In this document: positions 29,092 to 44,504 of the stretch, piece after piece
Position numbering within the stretch: position 1 is the first letter of the stretch
Layout: each line of letters starts with the position of its first letter
DNA from: Myxococcales bacterium
Lineage (GTDB): Bacteria > Myxococcota_A > Polyangia > Polyangiales > Houyiibacteriaceae
Length of the DNA: 55,528 bases
Assembly: GCA_019637115.1 (NCBI GenBank)
Contig: JAHBWH010000035.1
Coordinates: 1-55,528 of the forward strand
Direction of reading: 5' to 3'
Program-made: the position numbers and the translations under genes
Notes under the pieces: generated by a model
What the model was told of the DNA's origin: nothing
The model's input: the letters and a program-made list of their open reading frames with translations, nothing else
Databases searched by the model: none

Positions 29092-30582
29092 GTGGTCGCG
29101 GACGAACGAAGCCACGAGCAGCCGTCGCTTGACCGAGGCTCGCGCTGGGAGGCCCTCTGGGGCCGCGCGCACGCGCCCATCGATCCGGCGTCGGTCGTCG
29201 TCTTCCGCGTGCTCTTCGGGGTGCTGGCCGCCGTCGGGGCGCTCCGCTTCCTGGCCTACGGGTGGGTCGAGCGTTTCTTCGAGGAGCCGCGCTTCTTCTT
29301 CAAATATTGGGGCTTCGAGTGGGTCGAGGTGCTCCCGCGCCCGTGGATGCACGTGGCCTTCGGTGTGCTCGCCGTGCTCGGCGTGCTGATCTCGCTCGGG
29401 CTCTTCTATCGCGTCGCGATCGTCGCCTTCTTCCTGCTCTTCACCTACGTCGAGCTCATCGACGTCACGAACTACCTCAACCACTACTACCTGCTCAGCG
29501 TCCTCGCGTTCTGGATGTGCTTCATGCCGCTCGGCCAGGTCGGCGGCGTGGACGGCTGGCTCGCGCGACGCCGCGCGGCCCGGCGCGGTGCGGCGCCGCC
29601 GGTGGCCACCCTGCCGGCGTGGATGCTCTGGGCGCTGCGCCTGCAGATCGCGGTGGTCTACGTGCACGCGGGCCTCGCGAAGGCCACGGGCGATTGGCTG
29701 CTCCACGCGCAGCCCCTCGACATCTGGCTGCACGCCCGCACCGAGGTCCCGCTGCTCGGCGCCTTCTTGGACCTCCCCTACGTGCCCTTCGTCTTCGCGT
29801 GGGCGGGCTTCCTCTACGACACGACGATCCCCTTCTGGCTGAGCTGGCGGCGCACGCGCGTGCCGGCCTACGTCGTGCTGCTCGGCTTCCACTTCGCGAC
29901 GCACCTGCTCTTCACCATCGGCATGTTCCCGCTGATCATGACGAGCGCGGCGACGATCTTCTTCGACCCGAGCTGGCCGCGTGGAGTCGTCGCAGCCCTT
30001 GCGCGGGTTCGAGCGCGCGTCGGTGGGGGCGAGGTCGAGCACCGGAGAGAGGCGCCCGCCGACGCTCGACCCCTCGAGACCGCGCCGCCGCGCCGCCCGT
30101 GGCGTGTGGTGCTCGCCGGCGCGCTCGCGCTCTTCGCGCTCGTCCAGGTCGTCGCGCCCCTCCGGGCGCACGCCTACGGAGGTGATCTGCTCTGGCACGA
30201 GCAGGGCATGCGCTGGAGCTGGCGGGTGATGTGCCGCGAGAAGGACGGCAGCGTCGCGTTCCGCGTCACCGTACCGGGCCGACGACGTGAGCTCGTGGTT
30301 CCCCCGAGCCGTTACCTCACGCCCCACCAAGAGCGCGAGATGAGCGGGCAGCCCGACCTCATCCTGCAGCTCGCCCGCCGCATCGCAGAGGACTTCCGGG
30401 CTCGCGGTCACGCCCAGGTCGAGGTGCGCGTCGACGCGTTCGCCTCGCTGAACGGCCGACCGCTCGCCCGTCTGATCGACCCCGAGGTCGACCTCGCGCA
30501 GGTGCGCGACGGGATCGGCTTCGCGTCCTGGATCCTGCCGGCGCCAGACTCCGCGCCGATCCGCCTCGCCCGAGGAAGATGA
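29092..30582 (+). CDS. HTTM-domain (vitamin K-dependent gamma-carboxylase-like) membrane protein
   Basis: A 496-aa multi-pass protein. After about 30 residues come repeated hydrophobic segments with the family's style: DPASVVVFRVLFGVLAAVGA, FFFKYWGFEWVEVLP, NYLNHYYLLSVLAFWMCFMP, IAVVYVHAGLAKATGDWLL. The C-terminal soluble part has RYLTPHQEREMSGQPDLILQ and ends near residue 496. Bacterial members often sit in iron-uptake loci, but their reaction is not established; gamma-glutamyl carboxylation is only by analogy. The start is GTG 29092 with GAGGGGG upstream. Its stop overlaps the receptor ATG by ATGA, so the two are coupled. Confidence 0.85.
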   Translation: MVADERSHEQPSLDRGSRWEALWGRAHAPIDPASVVVFRVLFGVLAAVGALRFLAYGWVERFFEEPRFFFKYWGFEWVEVLPRPWMHVAFGVLAVLGVLISLGLFYRVAIVAFFLLFTYVELIDVTNYLNHYYLLSVLAFWMCFMPLGQVGGVDGWLARRRAARRGAAPPVATLPAWMLWALRLQIAVVYVHAGLAKATGDWLLHAQPLDIWLHARTEVPLLGAFLDLPYVPFVFAWAGFLYDTTIPFWLSWRRTRVPAYVVLLGFHFATHLLFTIGMFPLIMTSAATIFFDPSWPRGVVAALARVRARVGGGEVEHRREAPADARPLETAPPRRPWRVVLAGALALFALVQVVAPLRAHAYGGDLLWHEQGMRWSWRVMCREKDGSVAFRVTVPGRRRELVVPPSRYLTPHQEREMSGQPDLILQLARRIAEDFRARGHAQVEVRVDAFASLNGRPLARLIDPEVDLAQVRDGIGFASWILPAPDSAPIRLARGR

Positions 30583-33125: not shown

Positions 33126-34709
33126 GTGCAGTCTGCGCTCTTCGACGCCCTCCCCGATCCCGTGCTCCTCGTTCACGAGGGCGTGATCGTCGACGCGAAC
33201 CGCGCGTTCCGCGAGCTCCTCGGGGAAGAGTGCGTGCGCGGGCTCGCGCTGGTCGCGCTCGTCCCCGACGCGCCAGAGGAGCTCGTCGAGCAGCTCACGC
33301 AGCGCGCGACCGAGGGGGGCTTCGCGGCACGGCTCGTCTTCCGCGGGCGCTCGTCGCAGCGGCGAATCGCGCTCGACGTGCGGGTCAGCCCCGCGGGCGA
33401 CCAAGGCTGGATCCTGGTCGGGCAGGACGCGACCGAGGTCGCGGACCTGCACGCGACGATCGGCCGGCTCTCGCGGCTCTACGTGACGCGCCGCAGCGCC
33501 GCGATGGTCGATCTCGACCTGCTCCTCGCCGAGAGTCGCCCGATCTTCGAGGGCCTCGGTTGGAACTTCGGCCTGTGGGCGATCGAGCCCTTGGACGAGG
33601 AAACTCCTGCCGCCGAGCGACCGGCCGCCGCGGGGAGGCTCGGGGCGCGCCTGCGCTACGCCTTCGTGACATCAGCAGACGAGGCGGCGGTCGCGACGGC
33701 TTCCGAGATGGCAGCGATGCTCCAAGGGAGGCTCTTCGCGTTCGACGACGTCCCGCACGTCGCGAAGGTCGTCGCGGACGGACGCGGGCTCTTCCTCGAC
33801 AACCTCCCGCCCATCGGCGCGGCCTTGCTGCGCTCGCTCGGCGCGCCCGGCGACGCGGAGGAGGCGATGAGGGTGGCGGGCTTCGTGCGCTGCGCGCTCG
33901 CGCCAGTCTTCGTCGACGAGCGGGTCGCCTTCGTCCTGATGTTCAGCGGGCCGCGCGTGACCGAGCGCGACTTCGCGGCGATTCAGCTCTTCGGGGCGAT
34001 GGTCTCCGCGGCGGAGCAGCTCAGCACCTTCAGCGAGGAGATGGCGCGGCAGGAGCGGCACGCGGCGCTCGGACAGATGGCGGCGCAGCTCGCCCACGAG
34101 GTGCGCAACCCGCTCGCGGTGCTCTATCAGGCGACGGCGCAGGTGCGGCGGCGCGCGCGGGATGGCCGGGACATCGAGGAGCTACTCACGATGATCGACG
34201 AGGAGTCGCGTCGCCTCGATCGCCTCGTCAACGACCTCGTGCACTACGCGGCGCCCCTGACGCCGCGGTTGCGCGAGACCGAGCTCGCGTCGATCGTGCG
34301 CTACGCGCTCGACGGGGTCCGCGCCGAGGTGCCCGAAGAACGCTTCGCCGAGCTTCAGCTCGAGCTCGACGTGCCGGAGCTCCGCGTGCGCGCCGATCCG
34401 GTTCTGCTCCGGCAGGCCCTCGCGCACCTCTTCCACAACGCGATCGGCCACGTCGGGCAGGGCGGCTCGGTGACCATCTCGGCGCGCGCGGAGCAGTCGT
34501 GGGTGCGCCTGCGGGTCACCAACGAGGGACCGCCGCTCGAGCCCTCGGTCGCTTCGCGTGTCTTCGAGCCCTTCTTCTCCACCAAGGCCACGGGCCTCGG
34601 CCTGGGCCTCGCCGTGGTGCGCCGCCTCGTCGAGGATCAAGGGGGCCGCGTGCGCCTCGAAGACGGTCAGGGTGGGGTCACCTTCGCGGTGCTCTTGCCC
34701 GCCATTTGA
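33126..34709 (+). CDS. PAS/GAF sensor histidine kinase
   Basis: A 527-aa cytoplasmic sensor kinase. A PAS-like domain is at the N-terminus (ALFDALPDPVLLVHEGVIVD, residues about 4-25, to about 105), then a GAF-like domain (about 120-290). HisKA has the H-box AAQLAHEVRNPL with the phospho-acceptor H324. The HATPase domain has an N-box HLFHNAIGHVG and a C-terminal FEPFFSTKATGLGLGLAVVR; the usual DxGxG of the G1 box reads TNEGPPL, which is typical of NtrB-like kinases. The start is GTG 33126. No response regulator is adjacent, so it is an orphan. It may sense the state of the upstream iron-uptake operon or simply be nearby. Confidence 0.92.
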   Translation: MQSALFDALPDPVLLVHEGVIVDANRAFRELLGEECVRGLALVALVPDAPEELVEQLTQRATEGGFAARLVFRGRSSQRRIALDVRVSPAGDQGWILVGQDATEVADLHATIGRLSRLYVTRRSAAMVDLDLLLAESRPIFEGLGWNFGLWAIEPLDEETPAAERPAAAGRLGARLRYAFVTSADEAAVATASEMAAMLQGRLFAFDDVPHVAKVVADGRGLFLDNLPPIGAALLRSLGAPGDAEEAMRVAGFVRCALAPVFVDERVAFVLMFSGPRVTERDFAAIQLFGAMVSAAEQLSTFSEEMARQERHAALGQMAAQLAHEVRNPLAVLYQATAQVRRRARDGRDIEELLTMIDEESRRLDRLVNDLVHYAAPLTPRLRETELASIVRYALDGVRAEVPEERFAELQLELDVPELRVRADPVLLRQALAHLFHNAIGHVGQGGSVTISARAEQSWVRLRVTNEGPPLEPSVASRVFEPFFSTKATGLGLGLAVVRRLVEDQGGRVRLEDGQGGVTFAVLLPAI

Positions 34710-35493: not shown

Positions 35494-35550
35494 CCGGACG
35501 CGGACGCGGACTCGGACGCGGACGCGGACTCGGACGCGGACGCGGACTCG
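35494..35550. repeat. Hexamer/dodecamer tract GGACGC-GGACTC
   Basis: Alternating six-base units GGACGC and GGACTC lie in the 405-bp gap before the SulP gene. The same hexamer family makes up the tract at 25797-26057. The rest of the gap (35279-35683) shows no gene. The SulP frame is open through this tract (RTRTRT) but lacks a credible start there. Confidence 0.75.
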
Positions 35551-35683
35551 GCGGAGCCGACCCGGGCCTGACCCGGACTCGCTGACCGACCCAGGGGCGA
35601 CCCCGGCCCACGGCGTCGAGTCCCTTCTCCTCAACCCCTCCCCCTCTCCTGGGCTCGGAGTCGAGCTCGAAGGTTCGGTTGCG

Positions 35684-37459
35684 ATGTCTCCTCTTCGTTT
35701 CCTCCCCGACGCTCGGGCGCATACGCGCGACGCCCTCGCCGGCTTCCTCGTCTTCCTCGTGGCGCTGCCGCTCTCGCTCGGCGTCGCGATGGCCAGCGGC
35801 TTCCCGCCCGTCGCGGGCGTGGTGACGGCCGCCGTCGGCGGGCTCGTCACGCCGCTCCTCGGGGGGGCGCGGCTCACCATCAAGGGCCCCGCGGCGGGCC
35901 TGATCGTCCTCGTCCTCGGCGCGGTCACCGAGCTCGGCGCCGGCGACGCCGCGCTCGGCTATCGCAGGGCCCTCGCCGTCGGCGTCGTCGCCGCGGTCCT
36001 GCAGATCGCGCTGGCGATGGCGCGCGTCGCGCGGTTCGGCGCGGCGGCGCCGACCACGGCGGTGCACGGCATGTTGGCGGCCATCGGCGTCATCATCGTC
36101 GCCAAGCAGGCGCACGTGCTGATGGGCGTGTCGCCGGCGTCGATGAGCCCGCTCGCGCTGCTCGCCGAGCTGCCGCGGAGCCTCGCGCGCGACAACCCGG
36201 AGGTGCTGCTGATCGGCGGCGTCTCGCTCGCGCTCTTGTTCGCGTGGCCTCGGCTCGGCGCGCGCGTGTCGGCCCTCGCCCGCGTCCCCGGGCCGCTCGT
36301 CGCCCTCGCGGTGGCGATCCCGCTCGGCGTGCTCTTCCGCTTCGACACGCCTCACGACTACGCGCTCTTCGGGCGGACCTTCCACCTCGGGCCGGAGCTC
36401 CTCGTCACCTTGCCCGAGCACCTCGCGGACGTGCTCGTCGCGCCGGACTTCGACGTCGTCTGGAGCGCCGCCTCGCTGAAGTACGTGCTGATGTTCGCGA
36501 TCGTCGGCTCCCTCGAGTCGACCCTCAGCGTCATCGCGGTCGACTCGCTCGACCCCGCGCGCCGTGCGTCGGACGTCGACCGCGACCTCCTCTCCGTCGG
36601 GGTCGGGAACCTGCTCGCGGCGCTGCTCGGTGGGCTGCCGATGATCAGCGAGATCATCCGCTCCAAAGCGAACGTGGACGCCGGAGCGACGAGCGGTCGG
36701 GCGAACCTCTACCACGGCCTCTTCTTGCTCGTCTTCGTCGCGGCGGTCCCCGGGCTGCTCCACCTCGTCCCGCTCGCGGCGCTCGCCGCCATGCTCGTCT
36801 ACACGGGGCTGCGGCTCGCCTCCCCTCACGAGCTCGCGCACGTCCGGCGCCTCGGCGTCGACCAGGTCGCGATCTTCGCCGCGGCCTTCGTCGGCACCCT
36901 CGCGATCGACCTCCTGGCGGGGCTCGCGCTCGGGATCGCGACGAAGCTCGTGCTCCACGCGCTGCGCGCGCGTGGTCTTGGAGCGCTCCTCTCCACGAGG
37001 GTGCACGTCCAGGAGAGCGCGGGAGTCCTCGAGGTCCGCGTCACCGGGGCCGCGACCTTCCTCGCGTTGCCGCGGGTGCAAGCGGCCCTCAGGCGCGGCG
37101 ACGCGCCGAGCGTCCGGCGGGTGGTGGTCGATCTCTGGGGAGCAGATCTCGTCGACCACTCCTTCCTCACGCGCGTGAGAGCCCTCGCGGACGAGCTCCC
37201 GGAGGCGACCTTCGAGCTGCGGGGGCTCGACCGCCTGACCCCCGTCGCGCCGCACCCCGACGCGACGCGGCGCCTGCTCGCGTCACGCTCCACGTCGAGC
37301 GCGATCCGATCTGCGCCGGACCTCGCCCCGCCGCGCGACGCGATACGCCGACGCGACGCGACGCACGCGCGCGACGCGATGCACGCGCGCGAGGCCCTCG
37401 ATGCCGCGGCGCCCGAGCCCGACGAACGAGGGTTGGGGGCACGAGGAGCACGGCGATGA
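35684..37459 (+). CDS. SulP-family anion transporter with STAS domain
   Basis: A 591-aa inner-membrane transporter. About a dozen hydrophobic segments begin with DALAGFLVFLVALPLSLGVA and include GARLTIKGPAAGLIVLVLG and GLPMISEIIRSKANVDAGA, family hallmarks. A STAS domain follows (about 435-545, VHVQESAGVLEVRVTGAATF). The C-terminus is a low-complexity Arg/Asp/Ala tail. SulP members carry sulfate, bicarbonate or other anions; the operon with DabA makes bicarbonate the best guess, not proven. ATG 35684 has GAAGG upstream. Its stop overlaps the dabA ATG by four bases (ATGA), so it is translationally coupled. Confidence 0.92.
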   Translation: MSPLRFLPDARAHTRDALAGFLVFLVALPLSLGVAMASGFPPVAGVVTAAVGGLVTPLLGGARLTIKGPAAGLIVLVLGAVTELGAGDAALGYRRALAVGVVAAVLQIALAMARVARFGAAAPTTAVHGMLAAIGVIIVAKQAHVLMGVSPASMSPLALLAELPRSLARDNPEVLLIGGVSLALLFAWPRLGARVSALARVPGPLVALAVAIPLGVLFRFDTPHDYALFGRTFHLGPELLVTLPEHLADVLVAPDFDVVWSAASLKYVLMFAIVGSLESTLSVIAVDSLDPARRASDVDRDLLSVGVGNLLAALLGGLPMISEIIRSKANVDAGATSGRANLYHGLFLLVFVAAVPGLLHLVPLAALAAMLVYTGLRLASPHELAHVRRLGVDQVAIFAAAFVGTLAIDLLAGLALGIATKLVLHALRARGLGALLSTRVHVQESAGVLEVRVTGAATFLALPRVQAALRRGDAPSVRRVVVDLWGADLVDHSFLTRVRALADELPEATFELRGLDRLTPVAPHPDATRRLLASRSTSSAIRSAPDLAPPRDAIRRRDATHARDAMHAREALDAAAPEPDERGLGARGARR

Positions 37460-40400
37460 CCCAGCATGACACCGAGCGCCTCGAGCGGGCGATCGAGCAG
37501 GCAGCTCACCTCCTGCCCACGCAAGCGCCCCTCGCGCGCTTCGTGCATCACAACCCGTTGCACACACTCGAGTCGTCGCCCTTCGACGAGGCGATGGTCG
37601 AGGCCGCCGCTCGGCTCGGCGTGGAGACCTACCTCGACGAGGGATCGTACCAGCGCGCGCTGCGGAGCGGGCGGCTGCTCCCCGCCGACATCGACGCGAC
37701 GCTCGACGACGTGGGGGGCGACGACCGCCCGATCGCGGCGGGTCTCCCGGGGCGCCGAACGCTCCGGCGGGCCCGGCTGCTCGACGTCGACGTGCCCGAG
37801 GCGCGCGGCGAGGGCGTCGAGTGGCTCCTCTCCGAGGGCGATGCGTTGCGTGCGCTCCCGCGCTCGATCCCCGCGCCGACGCGCGGCCAGCTCGAGGCGC
37901 GGGCGCGTCGGTTCGGGGGCGTCGACACGATGCTCCCCAGGCTCTTCGAGGTCTGCCGCGCGCTCGCGTCGGCCCACGCGCCACCTCGCCATGTCGGCGG
38001 GAGGCTCCGCGACCGGATCCTCGACCGCCTCGGGGTCGACCCGGACGCCCTCGTCCATCCGATGCTCATCCGTCACCTCGCGGCCTACCTCGACCAAGGG
38101 GTGGCGTACTGGCCGATGCCGGACCGCGACGGCCTCTGGTCGACCTTCCAGCGCTTGCACGGCGCGGGACCGCAGCCTGCGTGGGCCGTCTCCCTCCCGG
38201 ATGAGCTCCACGCCGTCCGCGGCCGGAGCGCCGGCGAACAAGTGCTTCACGAGCTCGCGTTGCGGGGGATCCCGCCCGGGGCCTGGGCGGATTGGCTCAC
38301 CGGCCCGCTCCACGCGCTGCCTGGTTGGGCGGGGATGGTGCATCAGCTCGAGCGGCACCCGGAGCTCGCGCCGGAGCTCCCGCCTACGCGGCTCGTCGAC
38401 TACCTCGCGATCCGGCTCTTGCTCGATCGCCTCGCCGCCTCCTACGTCGCGCGCGAGGCCGGAGTCCATGTCTCGTCGTATGACGCCACGCCACGTGGGG
38501 CGGGCGACCGAGAGGACCCTCGCGGGCTCGCGCTGGAGCTCTACTTCACCGCGCTTCGGAGCGGCCTCGGGCCCGCCGAGCTCGAGCGCGACGAGCTCGG
38601 CGCCGCCCTCGCGCGAGAGGTGCGCGCCTTCGACTCGATCACGCGGCGGGGGATCTATCACCTCGCGTACGAGCGTCGCTTCCGGGTGCGCGTGCTCGAC
38701 GCGCTCCTCGGGCACGCGCGCGCCGAGCGCGCCGAGCGCGCCGAAAACACCGAGCGCGCCGATGGTCGCTCCGCGCCGCGGCACGATGGTCGCCACGGTG
38801 GACGCCAAGGTGGACGCCAAGGTGGTCGCGACGCGCCGCCGCTCGCGCAGGTCCTCTGTTGCATCGATGAGCGCGAGGAGTCGTTTCGCCGGCACCTCGA
38901 GGAGCTCGAGCCGCGCGTCGAGACGTTCGGGTACCTCGGACACTTCGGCGTCCTCATGCGGTACGAGGGCCTCACCGCGCCGCGCGCCGAGCTCCTCTGC
39001 CCCCCGGACGTCACGCCGCGGCACCGGGTCCGCGAGGTCCCCGGTCGCTCCACGAGGGAGGAACGCGACGAGCCGACGGCGCGTGGAGAGACGCGCGCCC
39101 GCGTGGCCTCCGCCCGCGCCGTCGCCAAGCGCCACCGCCACCTCGCGCGTCAGACCCTCGTGCGCGGAGGGCTCGTCGCCCTGACCGGCGCCGCGAGCGC
39201 GGTGCCCCTCGTCCTGCGCACCCTCTTCCCAGGGGTCGCGGATCGGCTGGCGCGCGTGTCGCGGACGGGTGGCGCCGCGTCGGGTGCGCAGGCCCCGACG
39301 CGGCTGCACGTGCATCGCGAGCACGACGAGCCGGACGCCTCGGGGCACCTCGACGGCTACTCGTGGGACGAGCAGGCCGAGATCGTCGGCGACGTGCTTG
39401 GAACGATCGGCCTCGTCTCGCGCTTCGCCAACGTCGTGTGCGTCGTCGGCCACGGGAGCTCGACCGTCAACAACCCCCACGCGGCGGCCTACCAATGCGG
39501 CGCGTGCGCGGGCGCGCCGGGCGGACCGAACGCACGGGCCTTCGCCGTGATGGCGAACGCGCCCGAGGTCCGCGCGCGGCTCGCCGCTCGGGGGATCGAG
39601 ATCCCGAGCGCGACGGTCTTCGTCGGCGCCTACCACGACACCACCTCCGACGAGCTCACGTACTTCGATGACGACCTGGTCCCCGCCAGCGCGCGCGAGG
39701 CCTTCGCGGCGACCCGGCGAGCGCTCGCGCGGGCGTGCGCGCGCAACGCCCACGAGCGCTGTCGACGGTTCCCCGACGCCGGGCCTCGGAGGGCAGCCCG
39801 CGCGTCGCTGCGACACGTCCGAGCGCGCAGCGTCGACCTCGCGCAGCCTCGCCCGGAGTACAACCACGCGACGAACGCCGTCGCGGTCATCGGCCGCCGG
39901 TCCAGGACCCGCGGGCTCTTCCTCGATCGGCGCGCCTTCCTCGCGTCCTACGACCCCTCCCTCGACGACGCCGAGGGGCACGTGCTCGAGCGCGTCCTCG
40001 CGCGGGTCGCGCCGGTCGGCGCTGGCATCAACCTCGAGTACTACTTCAGCCGGGTCGATCAGGCGCGCCTCGGCTGCGGGACCAAGCTCCCCCACAACAT
40101 CACCGGGCTCATCGGCGTGATGGACGGGCACGGGAGTGACCTGCGTACGGGGCTGCACTGGCAGACCGTCGAGATCCACGAGCCGATGCGTCTGCTCGTC
40201 GTCGTCGAGAGCACGCCCGAGCTCGTCGCGCGGATCCTCGAGCGCAATCCGCGGCTTCGCGCGCTCGTCGAGCACCGCTGGGTGTTGCTCGCGACCATCG
40301 ACCCGGACCGCGACGTCGCGCACTTCCTCGAGCGCACGGGGTTCTGCGAGCACGTCGTCGAGGCCACGGTCCCCGAGGTCGGTGGCTCGAGGGCGTGGTA

Positions 40401-40566
40401 CGAAGGCCACGAAGAGCACCTCGCGTTCGCGCGTGTCACCGCTGGTCGAGCGGAAGAAGAGCCCGGCCGATTTCGCGAGCCGCCCTATCGGACGGCGCGC
40501 AGTGAGCGCGGCGAGGAAGCTGACCGGAAGGACGCACGCCAACCGCGGCGGGAGGCCGTCCGATGA
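37456..40566 (+). CDS. dabA: DabA (DUF2309/UPF0753) inorganic-carbon transporter subunit
   Basis: A 1036-aa protein of the DabA family, the beta-carbonic-anhydrase-like subunit that works with a NuoL-type DabB to accumulate inorganic carbon. Known zinc-site residues are all visible: C469-x-D471 in LCCIDEREESFR, H666 in VVGHGSSTVNNPH and C681 in YQCGACAG, with the correct 15-residue H-to-C spacing. N-terminal FVHHNPLHTLE and later NLEYYFSRVDQARLGCGTKL also fit. A repetitive Arg/Gly/Glu-rich insert (about residues 418-462) lies just before the C-x-D motif. The start overlaps the SulP stop and the end overlaps the dabB start. Confidence 0.95.
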   Translation: MTQHDTERLERAIEQAAHLLPTQAPLARFVHHNPLHTLESSPFDEAMVEAAARLGVETYLDEGSYQRALRSGRLLPADIDATLDDVGGDDRPIAAGLPGRRTLRRARLLDVDVPEARGEGVEWLLSEGDALRALPRSIPAPTRGQLEARARRFGGVDTMLPRLFEVCRALASAHAPPRHVGGRLRDRILDRLGVDPDALVHPMLIRHLAAYLDQGVAYWPMPDRDGLWSTFQRLHGAGPQPAWAVSLPDELHAVRGRSAGEQVLHELALRGIPPGAWADWLTGPLHALPGWAGMVHQLERHPELAPELPPTRLVDYLAIRLLLDRLAASYVAREAGVHVSSYDATPRGAGDREDPRGLALELYFTALRSGLGPAELERDELGAALAREVRAFDSITRRGIYHLAYERRFRVRVLDALLGHARAERAERAENTERADGRSAPRHDGRHGGRQGGRQGGRDAPPLAQVLCCIDEREESFRRHLEELEPRVETFGYLGHFGVLMRYEGLTAPRAELLCPPDVTPRHRVREVPGRSTREERDEPTARGETRARVASARAVAKRHRHLARQTLVRGGLVALTGAASAVPLVLRTLFPGVADRLARVSRTGGAASGAQAPTRLHVHREHDEPDASGHLDGYSWDEQAEIVGDVLGTIGLVSRFANVVCVVGHGSSTVNNPHAAAYQCGACAGAPGGPNARAFAVMANAPEVRARLAARGIEIPSATVFVGAYHDTTSDELTYFDDDLVPASAREAFAATRRALARACARNAHERCRRFPDAGPRRAARASLRHVRARSVDLAQPRPEYNHATNAVAVIGRRSRTRGLFLDRRAFLASYDPSLDDAEGHVLERVLARVAPVGAGINLEYYFSRVDQARLGCGTKLPHNITGLIGVMDGHGSDLRTGLHWQTVEIHEPMRLLVVVESTPELVARILERNPRLRALVEHRWVLLATIDPDRDVAHFLERTGFCEHVVEATVPEVGGSRAWYEGHEEHLAFARVTAGRAEEEPGRFREPPYRTARSERGEEADRKDARQPRREAVR

Positions 40567-42062
40567 CGAGCGAGCTCATCGGGGTCGCGGTGTCCGTCGA
40601 TCTGGCCATCGCGTGGCTCGCCACGTCGATGGTGCTGCTCCCGCTCGGCGCGTTCGCACTGGCCGGCCTCGCCGAGATCGTCGGCGCCGGCTGGCGCGAC
40701 GAGGTGCTCGCGGCCGTCTCGCGCGCGCTCTTCACGCTCACCACGATCGCCGGGCTCACCGCTGCGGCGCTCTTCGGCCTCGAGGGTGGGCGGCCCGTGC
40801 ACCACGTCTTCGGCCGGTGGTTCTCGGCCGACGGGGCCGGCGCGCACCAAGCGTACGAGGTCGGCGTCCTGGTCGACGCGACCTCGCTGACCTACCTCGT
40901 CCTCACGTCCTTGCTGGCCGGCACGGTCGGCGCGTTCAGCTTGCGCTACCTCGAGGGGGAAGAAGGCGCGGGCCGCTTCTTTCGCGCGATGATGCTCTTC
41001 ACCGCCGGGCTCTCGCTCGTCGTCGTAGCGGAGAGCCTCGGCCTGCTCTTCGTCGGCTGGGAGCTCGTGGGCGTGAGCTCGGCCCTGCTCATCGCGTTCT
41101 ACCGGCACCGAGAGGGGCCCGTGAGGCACGCCCTGCTCGCGTTCGCGATCTACCGCATCTGTGACGCGGCCCTCTTGGCGTCGCTCGTCGTGCTCCACCA
41201 CGCGTCGGGGACCACGTCCCTCCCTGCGGCGTTCGAGGCGCCATTGTCGCCGACGGTGGCGGCGCTCTTCGGCGGCCTCGTCCTCTTCGCGTCGCTCGGC
41301 AAGAGCGCGCAGCTCCCGTTCTCGGGGTGGTTGCCGCGCGCGATGGAGGGTCCGACGCCTTCGTCTGCGATCTTCTACGGAGCCCTCTCCGTGCATGCGG
41401 GCGCGTACCTCTTGTTGCGCACCGCGCCCCTGTGGGAGGGGTCGACGCCGCTGAGGGTGACGATCGTGATGATCGGCGCGCTCACCGCGCTCCTTGGCAC
41501 GCTCACGGGGCGGGCGCAGACCGACGTCAAGAGCGGCCTCGCCTACGCGGCGTCGGCGCAGGTGGGCCTCATCTTCGTCGAGATCGGCCTGGGCCTCCAC
41601 ACGCTCGCGCTCGTTCACGTCGTCGGCCACGCGCTCGTGCGCACGCTCGAGCTCCTACGCGCGCCGTCTCTCTTGCAGGATGTTCAGCGCCTCGAGGCGG
41701 AGCTCGGCCGTGCGCTGCCGCGCGCGGGGGCGCGCTACGAGCGCGTGGTCCCTCGACGGATCCGTACGTGGCTCTATCGCTTCGCGCTCGAGCGCGCCTT
41801 CCTGGACACGCTCGCCTCACGGCTCATCGCCGCGCTGCGACGGGCCACGCGCGCGCTCGACGCGTTCGACCGGCGCGTCGTCGGCGCCGCCACCAGCCGC
41901 GCCTCCACGCCGGGTCGTGGGGTCGGGGCCTCCGCGGGCGTGGCACATGGGTCGACCTCGGAGCCTCCTCCCGCCGCCACGAAACGCGAAGGGGTCACCA
42001 TGAAACGCGGAGGGGAAGGGGCCGAAGCCGACTGGCCCGAGACCGTGGAGGGGCGCCGATGA
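40563..42062 (+). CDS. dabB: DabB-type NuoL-like proton-channel subunit (proton-conducting transporter)
   Basis: A 499-aa membrane protein of the NuoL/MnhA family. It has the channel motifs VGWELVGVSSALLIAFY (the conserved Glu of helix 5), GKSAQLPFSGWLPRAMEGPTP (helix 7 Lys) and VKSGLAYAASAQVGLIFV (helix 8 Lys). After about residue 355 there is no NuoL-like second half; instead it has an Arg-rich helical segment and a disordered tail to the end. It would supply proton-driven coupling to DabA. ATG 40563 overlaps the dabA stop by ATGA, and its own stop overlaps the next start likewise. Confidence 0.88.
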   Translation: MTSELIGVAVSVDLAIAWLATSMVLLPLGAFALAGLAEIVGAGWRDEVLAAVSRALFTLTTIAGLTAAALFGLEGGRPVHHVFGRWFSADGAGAHQAYEVGVLVDATSLTYLVLTSLLAGTVGAFSLRYLEGEEGAGRFFRAMMLFTAGLSLVVVAESLGLLFVGWELVGVSSALLIAFYRHREGPVRHALLAFAIYRICDAALLASLVVLHHASGTTSLPAAFEAPLSPTVAALFGGLVLFASLGKSAQLPFSGWLPRAMEGPTPSSAIFYGALSVHAGAYLLLRTAPLWEGSTPLRVTIVMIGALTALLGTLTGRAQTDVKSGLAYAASAQVGLIFVEIGLGLHTLALVHVVGHALVRTLELLRAPSLLQDVQRLEAELGRALPRAGARYERVVPRRIRTWLYRFALERAFLDTLASRLIAALRRATRALDAFDRRVVGAATSRASTPGRGVGASAGVAHGSTSEPPPAATKREGVTMKRGGEGAEADWPETVEGRR

Positions 42063-43531
42063 GCTCGACCGATCCTTGGATCGCCATCGGTCCCGCCCTG
42101 GGTCCCGCCGCGACGTTCGGGGCGATCGTCACCCTCGCCCTGACCGCGGGCGTCGTGGCTCGCGCCGCGAGCACGCGCTCGGCCCGCTGGTGGGGCCTCC
42201 TCGGCGCGATGCTCTCGTTGCTCCTCGCGATCTTGGCAGCGCGTCGCCGCAGCACGTCGAGCGTCGACGCGCTGGGCGCCGACGCGCTGGGCGCCGACGC
42301 GCTCGGCATGGACGCCCTCTGGGGGCTCGACGCGCTGTCCGCGCCAATCTTTCCCTTCGTCGTCGCGCTCTTCGCCGTGATCACCCTGGCGGCCCCGACG
42401 CGCTTCGCGTCACCCACGCTCCTCGCGCGCTTGGCGCTCGCCAGCGCGCTCGCGCTCGTCGTGATCGGCGCGCGTCACCCGCTCCTCGTGGCGCTCGCCT
42501 GGGCGGGCTCATCGGTCCCCACCGCGATCGAGCTGCGGGGGCGCCCCGGAGCGCGGGCTTTCGTCGTCCACCACGTCGTGAGCGCGCTCTTCGTCGTCGC
42601 GGGGCTCTTCGCGGCGCACGTCGCGTCGCCACGGCTGGCGGGCGCTCTGCTCGTGCTCGGCGTCCTCATCCGCGAGGGCGTCGTGCCATTTCACGCCTGG
42701 GTCCCGAGCCTCTACGAGCGAGCGCCGCTCGGCTCGGCGCTGCTCTTCTCGCGGGCACAGGTCGGCGCGTACCTGCTGGCGCGCGTGCTCGTCGCGAGCC
42801 CCCTCGGCAGCTCCGCGACGTGGGGCCTCGACCTGCTCGGCGCGATGACCATGCTCTACGGGGCAGCCCTCGCGCTCGGACAACCCGGCGTGCGGCGCGC
42901 GCTCGGCTACCTCGCGACGAGCCAGACCGCGATCGTGCTCCTCGGTCTCGCCGACGGCGGGCCGATCGGCGCGCGCGGCGCGGTGCTCGCCATCGTCTCC
43001 GTCGGGCTCGCGCAGACGGGGCTGGGGCTCGCGCTCTGGGTCACGGAGGCGCGCCGCGGCGAGCTCCGTCTCGACGGGGCGGGGGAGGGCGTGGCCGCGA
43101 CGCCCGCGTTGGCGGGCGCGACGCTCTTCCTCGGCCTCGCGTGCGTGGGGCTTCCCGGGACGCTCGCGTTCGTCGCCGAGGAGCTGGTCTTCCACGCCAC
43201 GCTCGAGGCGCGGCCCTGGATCGGCGTCGCGATGGTGACCGCCACCGCGATCAACGGGGTGCTGGTGCTGCGGATCGCGCTGCGCATCTTCGCAGGCGGC
43301 GTCATCGGCGGCGCGTTCGGAGCTCGTCGACCGCGGGGGGGCGCGGACCTGCTCGCGCGCGAGCGCGTGGCGTTCGGCCTGCTGGGTGCATCGCTCGTCA
43401 CCTTCGGGGTCGCGCCACAACGACTGTTGAGCGTTGGCGCCGAAGACCCCGCGGAGATCCGAGCCGACGTCCACGTGAGCGCCGACATGAGCCGCGACGC
43501 GCACCGGAGGGAGATCCATGACGACCGGTGA
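42059..43531 (+). CDS. Second NuoL/NuoM-like membrane subunit in the dab operon
   Basis: A 490-aa multi-pass protein. It resembles NuoM/NuoN: VPFHAWVPSLYERAPLGSAL, RRALGYLATSQTAIVLLGL, and GLPGTLAFVAEELVFHATLE. However the helix-5 glutamate motif reads AWAGSSVPTAIE (no WE), and the two channel lysines are arginine (REGVVPF, GVRRALGY), unlike the preceding subunit. A short DALGAD repeat (three copies) is near residue 70-80. It may be a structural partner of the first subunit rather than an independent channel. ATG 42059 overlaps the preceding stop, and its end overlaps the next gene by 14 bp. Confidence 0.82.
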   Translation: MSSTDPWIAIGPALGPAATFGAIVTLALTAGVVARAASTRSARWWGLLGAMLSLLLAILAARRRSTSSVDALGADALGADALGMDALWGLDALSAPIFPFVVALFAVITLAAPTRFASPTLLARLALASALALVVIGARHPLLVALAWAGSSVPTAIELRGRPGARAFVVHHVVSALFVVAGLFAAHVASPRLAGALLVLGVLIREGVVPFHAWVPSLYERAPLGSALLFSRAQVGAYLLARVLVASPLGSSATWGLDLLGAMTMLYGAALALGQPGVRRALGYLATSQTAIVLLGLADGGPIGARGAVLAIVSVGLAQTGLGLALWVTEARRGELRLDGAGEGVAATPALAGATLFLGLACVGLPGTLAFVAEELVFHATLEARPWIGVAMVTATAINGVLVLRIALRIFAGGVIGGAFGARRPRGGADLLARERVAFGLLGASLVTFGVAPQRLLSVGAEDPAEIRADVHVSADMSRDAHRREIHDDR

Positions 43532-44504
43532 GCTCGAGGGCGGGCACGCGTCGTGGGCGGCGTCATCCAAGAAGCCAACGGAGACGTCCGCGTCCGCGAC
43601 CGCGGCCTCCGCGCGGGTCGTGCACGCTTGGAACGCGCTGCGGGTCGTGGCGATGTTCGACATCGCGAGCTTCCATCTCACGCATCGGTACTTCCTGGGA
43701 GGGATCGGGCTCCCCGTGTTCCTGCTGCTGTCGACCGGGCTGACGGTGATGGGCCCGCGCGTCGCGCCACGCGCGACGATGCTTCGGCGTCGTCTGGCGC
43801 GGCTCACGGGACCTTGGGCTTTCTGGACGCTCGTGCTCTCGGGGGTCCACGTGGTGCGCGCCCTGCGGGACGGGCTCCCACCCTTCGGCTGGTTCGAGGT
43901 GGAGATGCTGCTCGAGGGCGTCGAGACCCACTTCTGGTACCTCCCCTTCGTCACCGTCGCGGGGTGGCTCCTCTACGAGGTCGATCGCGTCACTCGGGGG
44001 CTCCCACCCGTCGCCATCGCGGGCGCGAGTCTCGTCGTGGCGTTGCTCGCGACCTCGGCCGACGGCGCCTTCGTCTATCACGACCCCTTCTCGCAGTGGG
44101 CCTTCGCCTTGCCCTCGCTCCCGCTCGGCCTCGGCCTCGGCGTGCTCGTCCGATGCCGGCGCCAAACGCTGGCGGTCGCCTACGTGGCGGCTTTCGGCGT
44201 CGGCGCGGCCTCGCTCCAGGCGACCGGCTTCGCGACGGGAGACGCCGCGGTCCGCTTCGGCGCCGCGGCCTCCGTGCTCGTCGGCCTCTGGCTGCTGCCC
44301 AATCGCGAGCTCCCCCTCGTCCGTCGGGTCGAGCCCCTGATGCTCGGCATCTTCCTCCTCCACGTGACGGTCGGCTACGTCCTCCTCGATCATTGGATCC
44401 CGCACGGGACCATCCCCGCCGTGCCCTACGTCGCCTTGGTGGTCGTGCTGACCGGGGCAGGGGTTTGGGTCATGCGACGGACTCCGCTGCGGCGCTTCCT
44501 CTGA
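43518..44504 (+). CDS. Acyltransferase-3-like integral membrane protein
   Basis: A 328-aa multi-pass protein. The first 35 residues are polar. Then NALRVVAMFDIASFHLTHRYF with IGLPVFLLLSTGLTVMG, RLARLTGPWAFWTLVLSG and THFWYLPFVTVAGWLLYEV match the acyltransferase-3 (OafA-type) membrane fold, with about nine to ten helices. Members O-acylate sugars or lipids; no substrate can be read here. Its start (ATG 43518, GGAGGGAG upstream) lies inside the end of the previous gene, so it is the last member of the coupled operon. Why an acyltransferase would belong with carbon uptake is unclear. Confidence 0.75.
   Translation: MTTGELEGGHASWAASSKKPTETSASATAASARVVHAWNALRVVAMFDIASFHLTHRYFLGGIGLPVFLLLSTGLTVMGPRVAPRATMLRRRLARLTGPWAFWTLVLSGVHVVRALRDGLPPFGWFEVEMLLEGVETHFWYLPFVTVAGWLLYEVDRVTRGLPPVAIAGASLVVALLATSADGAFVYHDPFSQWAFALPSLPLGLGLGVLVRCRRQTLAVAYVAAFGVGAASLQATGFATGDAAVRFGAAASVLVGLWLLPNRELPLVRRVEPLMLGIFLLHVTVGYVLLDHWIPHGTIPAVPYVALVVVLTGAGVWVMRRTPLRRFL

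Follow-up and report, generated by a model that had tools for sequence, protein, structure and literature searches.

The first four genes of a five-gene cluster in a Myxococcales genome probably encode a DAB/DAC-type pump with two antiporter-like subunits, in which a single proton path would be split between the NuoL-like subunit DabB and a NuoM-like partner. We hold this reading with moderate confidence, since the split channel and a function in inorganic-carbon uptake are what we infer from the gene and residue patterns in the sequence. The cluster lies in a stretch of 55,528 nucleotides (the window) from an 8.9-Mb assembly of 434 contigs that holds one DabA. Its five open reading frames are all on the forward strand and overlap by 4, 4, 4 and 14 bp (Table 1), just as an earlier reading of this DNA from its letters alone (the sequence-only reading) had stated, and from these overlaps all five genes would be expected to be co-transcribed. 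A pattern scan of the cluster for promoters and terminators found none. The order of the first four genes is not due to chance, because their homologues keep that order in other genomes.

Table 1. Genes of the cluster, with positions in the window and main matches.
Product	Length (aa)	Coordinates	Strand	Matches
SulP-family anion transporter	591	35684..37459	+	PF00916 (Sulfate_transp) 3.5e-48
DabA, long type	1036	37456..40566	+	PF10070 2.8e-224 over full profile; 9rd0_A 3.8e-62
DabB, NuoL-like	499	40563..42062	+	Proton_antipo_M 8.8e-39; PF00361 positions 1-222 of 294
NuoM-like partner	490	42059..43531	+	PF00361 (Proton_antipo_M) 5.1e-24
Acyltransferase-3 membrane protein	328	43518..44504	+	PF01757 (Acyl_transf_3) 1.1e-13

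Several features lie upstream. The 405-bp gap before SulP contains an 18-bp tandem repeat, CGGACGCGGACGCGGACT, in 3.2 perfect copies (35495-35551), and a PAS-type sensor histidine kinase is encoded at 33126-34709. At four other loci (L061, L063, L064, L065), SulP or DabA is immediately preceded by two genes, one belonging to the kinase cluster (c4) and the other regulator-like (c3). Farther from the operon, about 5 kb on its upstream side, a gene at 29092-30582 combines an HTTM domain with a vitamin-K-dependent gamma-carboxylase lumenal domain (PF05090, PF22777) and is possibly a CO2-using carboxylase; it is flanked by genes for an imelysin and a TonB receptor.

DabA, which comes in two types, was found in 73 genomes out of 379 for the phylum and in 74 out of 184 for the order. 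The short type (about 800 aa) is preceded by the DabB gene and has neither a SulP nor a NuoM-like gene nearby, whereas the long type (about 1000 aa), to which the DabA of the window belongs, is followed by a NuoL-like and a NuoM-like gene; two thirds of the long-type loci also have SulP, either upstream or downstream. Among loci with adequate flanks, a NuoM-like gene is present at 79 of 81 long-type loci and at none of 15 short-type loci, SulP lies within 6 kb of DabA at 54/81 versus 0/15 (Fisher test, 1e-15 and 8e-7, respectively, with shared ancestry ignored), and a NuoL-like gene is found at 78 of the 81. Because the loci share ancestry, neither these counts nor the residue counts given below represent independent events. 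They nevertheless tie SulP and the second PF00361 subunit to this type of DabA, as the sequence-only reading had supposed. Long-type loci occur in at least five phyla (Planctomycetota, Verrucomicrobiota, Acidobacteriota, Actinomycetota and Myxococcota), in a cross-phylum set that was retrieved with long-DabA patterns and is thus unfit for frequency estimates. The arrangement SulP-DabA-NuoL-NuoM has been known since 2017: SulP and NuoM beside this type of DabA characterize 'clade C' of COG3002 in the available text of the Biol Direct paper (PMC5700660), and at our locus, too, ybcC lies upstream of nuoL, together with COG0659 and COG1008 genes. At two Schlesneria loci (L134, L141), neither NuoL nor NuoM nor SulP was found within 8 kb on either side of a long DabA. 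At a locus from the genus of the window (L074), DabA matches as two pieces (profile positions 7-637 and 630-978), possibly reflecting a frameshift or an assembly error.

The DabB of the window retains the complex-I ion-pair residues, including the TM5 glutamate, and according to its hydropathy has no TM-like segment past TM11, where an amphipathic tail follows. In 107 of 123 long-type DabBs there are zero TM-like segments after TM11, as opposed to four in 38 of 41 short-type DabBs. These counts come from simple hydropathy, a method that misses some helices (it finds 9 and 11 in the two antiporter-like subunits of the window). All 126 long-type DabBs have the TM5 glutamate, which none of 41 short-type DabBs has; other changes fixed in the long type are His254 to Tyr and Lys342 to Arg (NuoL numbering; 125/126 each). 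At three loci (L061, L064, L086), representing at least two separate genera, NuoL and NuoM form a single open reading frame, which supports contact between both subunits.

The partner has the fold of complex-I NuoM (AlphaFold2 pLDDT 89.6; best Foldseek match 8e9g_M, 2.1e-17), but the residues of a NuoM pumping subunit are not all there: in the window, the TM5 Glu, TM7 Lys and TM8 Lys are lost, and the TM12 acids E374 and E375 are kept. This pattern extends across 111 partners: arginine replaces the TM7 lysine in 104, the TM8 lysine is lost in 106, the alignment column of the TM5 glutamate lacks that residue in 106, and 109 retain an acid in TM12, either at the position of Glu407 or at the next residue. 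A glutamate exactly at Glu407 was considered as a universal feature and rejected, given that only 57 of 111 have it in the wider set. Since the partner lacks the charges of an independent channel, the term 'second proton-channel subunit', chosen from the sequence alone, probably does not describe it correctly. The operon represents a modified version of the DAB core, not just DAB2 with additional genes.

DabA itself, the cytoplasmic beta-CA-like subunit, combines a conserved active site with an altered finger. Its zinc site (C469, H666 and C681) and Asp-Arg dyad (D471/R473) correspond to ligands and a dyad that do not vary among 141 long and 44 short DabAs and are essential in DAB2 (PMC13144422), and the conserved ligands suggest carbonic-anhydrase-type activity for the long DabA as well. 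The only solved relative recognizable by sequence is DabA2 (9rd0_A), and a model of DabA (pLDDT 79) gave no significant Foldseek match in a structure library extending to April 2026; the beta-CA fold is therefore assigned by sequence homology to 9rd0. The finger (approximately residues 565-605) is without the glutamate of DAB2 in the window. An acid at this position (Glu444 in DAB2) is found in 40 of 44 short and 10 of 141 long DabAs, and a 26-column finger stretch is free of any Asp or Glu in 124/141 long versus 0/44 short DabAs, in an alignment of this divergent region that is anchored mainly on one conserved glycine. In the tree, the long DabAs form one clade (support 0.994), within which the loss of the finger acid defines a single subclade of 131 members (support 0.996). 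The ten basal long DabAs retain the acid, and wherever the flanking sequence suffices, additional NuoM genes accompany them. Four of these basal loci (L053, L089, L092, L093) have a NuoM-like gene upstream of DabA in addition to two others, and their NuoM subunits retain more of the canonical lysines.

One could argue that the complex works as an ordinary DAB pump whose exit half-channel has been rebuilt from other DabA or DabB residues. The NuoM-like subunit would then play no more than a structural or regulatory part beside it, and SulP would carry bicarbonate separately. In favour of this, the partner has lost most charges of a working channel, the active-site residues of DabA are unchanged, and roughly half of the partners carry their acid one residue off the Glu407 position. 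However, a TM12 acid has persisted almost throughout despite the other charge losses, and the presence of the partner coincides with the loss of the C-terminal helices in DabB and of the acid in the DabA finger, so that we consider this explanation unlikely, if still a serious one.

In the split-channel mechanism that we favour, DabA would bind CO2 and hydrate it at its beta-CA-like zinc site, while the membrane potential would drive protons inward through the NuoL-like DabB. DabB would provide the retained complex-I gate (TM5 Glu, Arg, Asp and Lys) together with the majority of channel residues as far as TM11, without the C-terminal helices that help to build the exit half-channel, and the partner, its entry charges gone, would offer the retained TM12 acid as the exit acid. 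The partner may thus replace both the DabB helices and the finger glutamate of DabA, so that two proteins would form one proton path; structure prediction covered the single chains. Proton passage would be coupled to one-way CO2 hydration, with the bicarbonate staying in the cell for the carboxylases of a heterotroph, and SulP, where present, would probably move bicarbonate as a second route.

The genomic context is consistent with such a role. The genome encodes two beta-CAs, and a RuBisCO search of it gave no match, so the idea of a heterotroph, put forward in the sequence-only reading together with an inorganic-carbon function, holds. A beta-CA gene lies near DabA at 13 of 144 long loci (14 matches, some partial), where roughly one such locus would be expected from an estimated two or so CA genes per genome, and at seven of these 13 it is within about 3 kb upstream of SulP; this excess fits the proposed carbon function. 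In Firmicutes, DAB and beta-CA have been reported to exclude each other; no such pattern was seen in this order, in which 65/74 DabA-positive and 90/110 DabA-negative genomes have a beta-CA (p 0.31). Given that heterotrophs with carbonic anhydrase also carry this machinery, its role probably goes beyond standing in for that enzyme.

The same observation could be taken to mean that bicarbonate supply is not the only need, and hence that the pump is reversible or runs in reverse, so that the chemistry of CO2 and bicarbonate would power ion translocation or pH control instead of carbon uptake. An ion-exporting role was proposed by Dibrova and colleagues in 2017 (PMC5700660), and the universal TM5 glutamate of the long DabBs points the same way: in DabB2 this residue of NuoL is replaced by Ile151, and its reintroduction (I151E) halves DAB2-dependent growth (PMC13144422). 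Yet the relatives that have been tested, DAB2 and MpsAB, support the acquisition of CO2 or bicarbonate, and the beta-CA and SulP neighbours fit carbon acquisition, which makes a reverse pump quite improbable in our view. Because the complex-I gate glutamate is kept, the split-channel machinery may nonetheless be reversible, as a CO2/bicarbonate-coupled proton pump. It is conceivable, though we advance it tentatively, that the long-type loci make up a large, cross-phylum class of DAB systems in which CO2 hydration is coupled to the proton gradient through a complex-I-like two-subunit module, its one channel being shared by a NuoL-like protein that is truncated and a NuoM-like protein that is half inactivated.

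SulP is an optional member of the cluster and, by its relationships, probably a bicarbonate carrier. Its structural matches are BicA (6ki1) and the SLC26-type transporter 5da0. Its description as a SulP/STAS protein stands in part, as it aligns through the C-terminal part of 5da0 to residue 517, but Pfam calls no STAS domain. With 113 bits against the curated NCBIfam cut-off of 880 bits for BicA, it belongs to the same superfamily only, and it is below the curated cut-off for DauA as well. The beta-CA genes upstream of SulP favour bicarbonate over sulfate as its cargo, without proving it. Among SulP relatives on plasmids, the annotated best match has no DAB or CA gene beside it.

The inclusion of the acyltransferase in the machine, as proposed in the sequence-only reading, is not supported. 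Within the order, 8 of 184 genomes have a relative, and none but the copy in the window adjoins DabA; a second copy lies elsewhere in the same genome, and another genome of the genus (G389) has no relative at that place. In a genome from another family (G150), an acyltransferase of a different protein family (HGSNAT_cat) begins 28 bp after NuoM (locus L055, 4221-5324). A role as a core part was therefore rejected, and the gene is most likely a lineage-specific passenger unconnected with the mechanism. A purine-rich, ribosome-binding-type stretch precedes its start codon (ATG 43518). The failure of both SulP scores to reach a curated cut-off, the absence of SulP near 27 of 81 long loci and an acyltransferase unique to this locus would all suit a loose cluster of membrane proteins, in which SulP and the acyltransferase handle other compounds (sulfate, organic acids or lipids) and only the DabA-DabB core serves carbon. 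We regard this as very unlikely, as the near-constant NuoM-like subunit, sometimes fused to DabB, and the seven loci with a beta-CA upstream of SulP argue against it.

The 2026 structure of DAB2 from Halothiobacillus neapolitanus (DabA2-DabB2, PDB 9rd0; roles and mutants from PMC13144422) leaves the question of what links proton flow to the carbonic-anhydrase-like subunit. The locus described here shares with DAB2 the DabA family with its zinc ligands and Asp-Arg dyad, and an adjoining NuoL-like PF00361 DabB with the TM7 lysine and most channel residues up to TM11, and thus has the traits of a DAB/DAC complex. In DAB2, the exit half-channel consists of a 15-TM DabB and the DabA finger carrying Glu444, an isoleucine occupies the TM5 Glu position, and there is no second antiporter subunit. 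In contrast, our locus combines a DabB without TM-like segments after TM11, where the two-subunit type has four by hydropathy, with a finger that lacks the acid, an intact TM5 glutamate and the added NuoM-like partner. A natural class of this kind offers a ready contrast to DAB2 and exact residues to mutate. That these coupling parts are altered together in long DABs seems to be new relative to the open-access literature: clade C of COG3002, of which this locus is a member with the same gene content for genes 1-4, was described without a residue-level analysis of the added subunits and without mention of an acyltransferase in the available text (PMC5700660). MpsAB(C) of Staphylococcus aureus, likewise a pair of DabA/DabB homologues in a heterotroph, is needed for growth at air CO2; the available text (PMC6689103, PMC8552792) describes no SulP or NuoM-like gene and reports that the system rarely coexists with CA, as opposed to the two beta-CAs here. 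DAB1 of H. neapolitanus (DabA1, a small membrane protein and DabB1; PMC13144422), compared by description only, is also a three-subunit DAC, but has a small hypothetical membrane protein as the third member. Finally, a NuoL/NuoM-like pair is shared with the antiporter subunits of complex I and Mrp, as are the TM5 Glu and the TM7 Lys/Asp ion pair in the NuoL-like member; here, the pair has no redox arm and is joined to a carbonic-anhydrase-like subunit.
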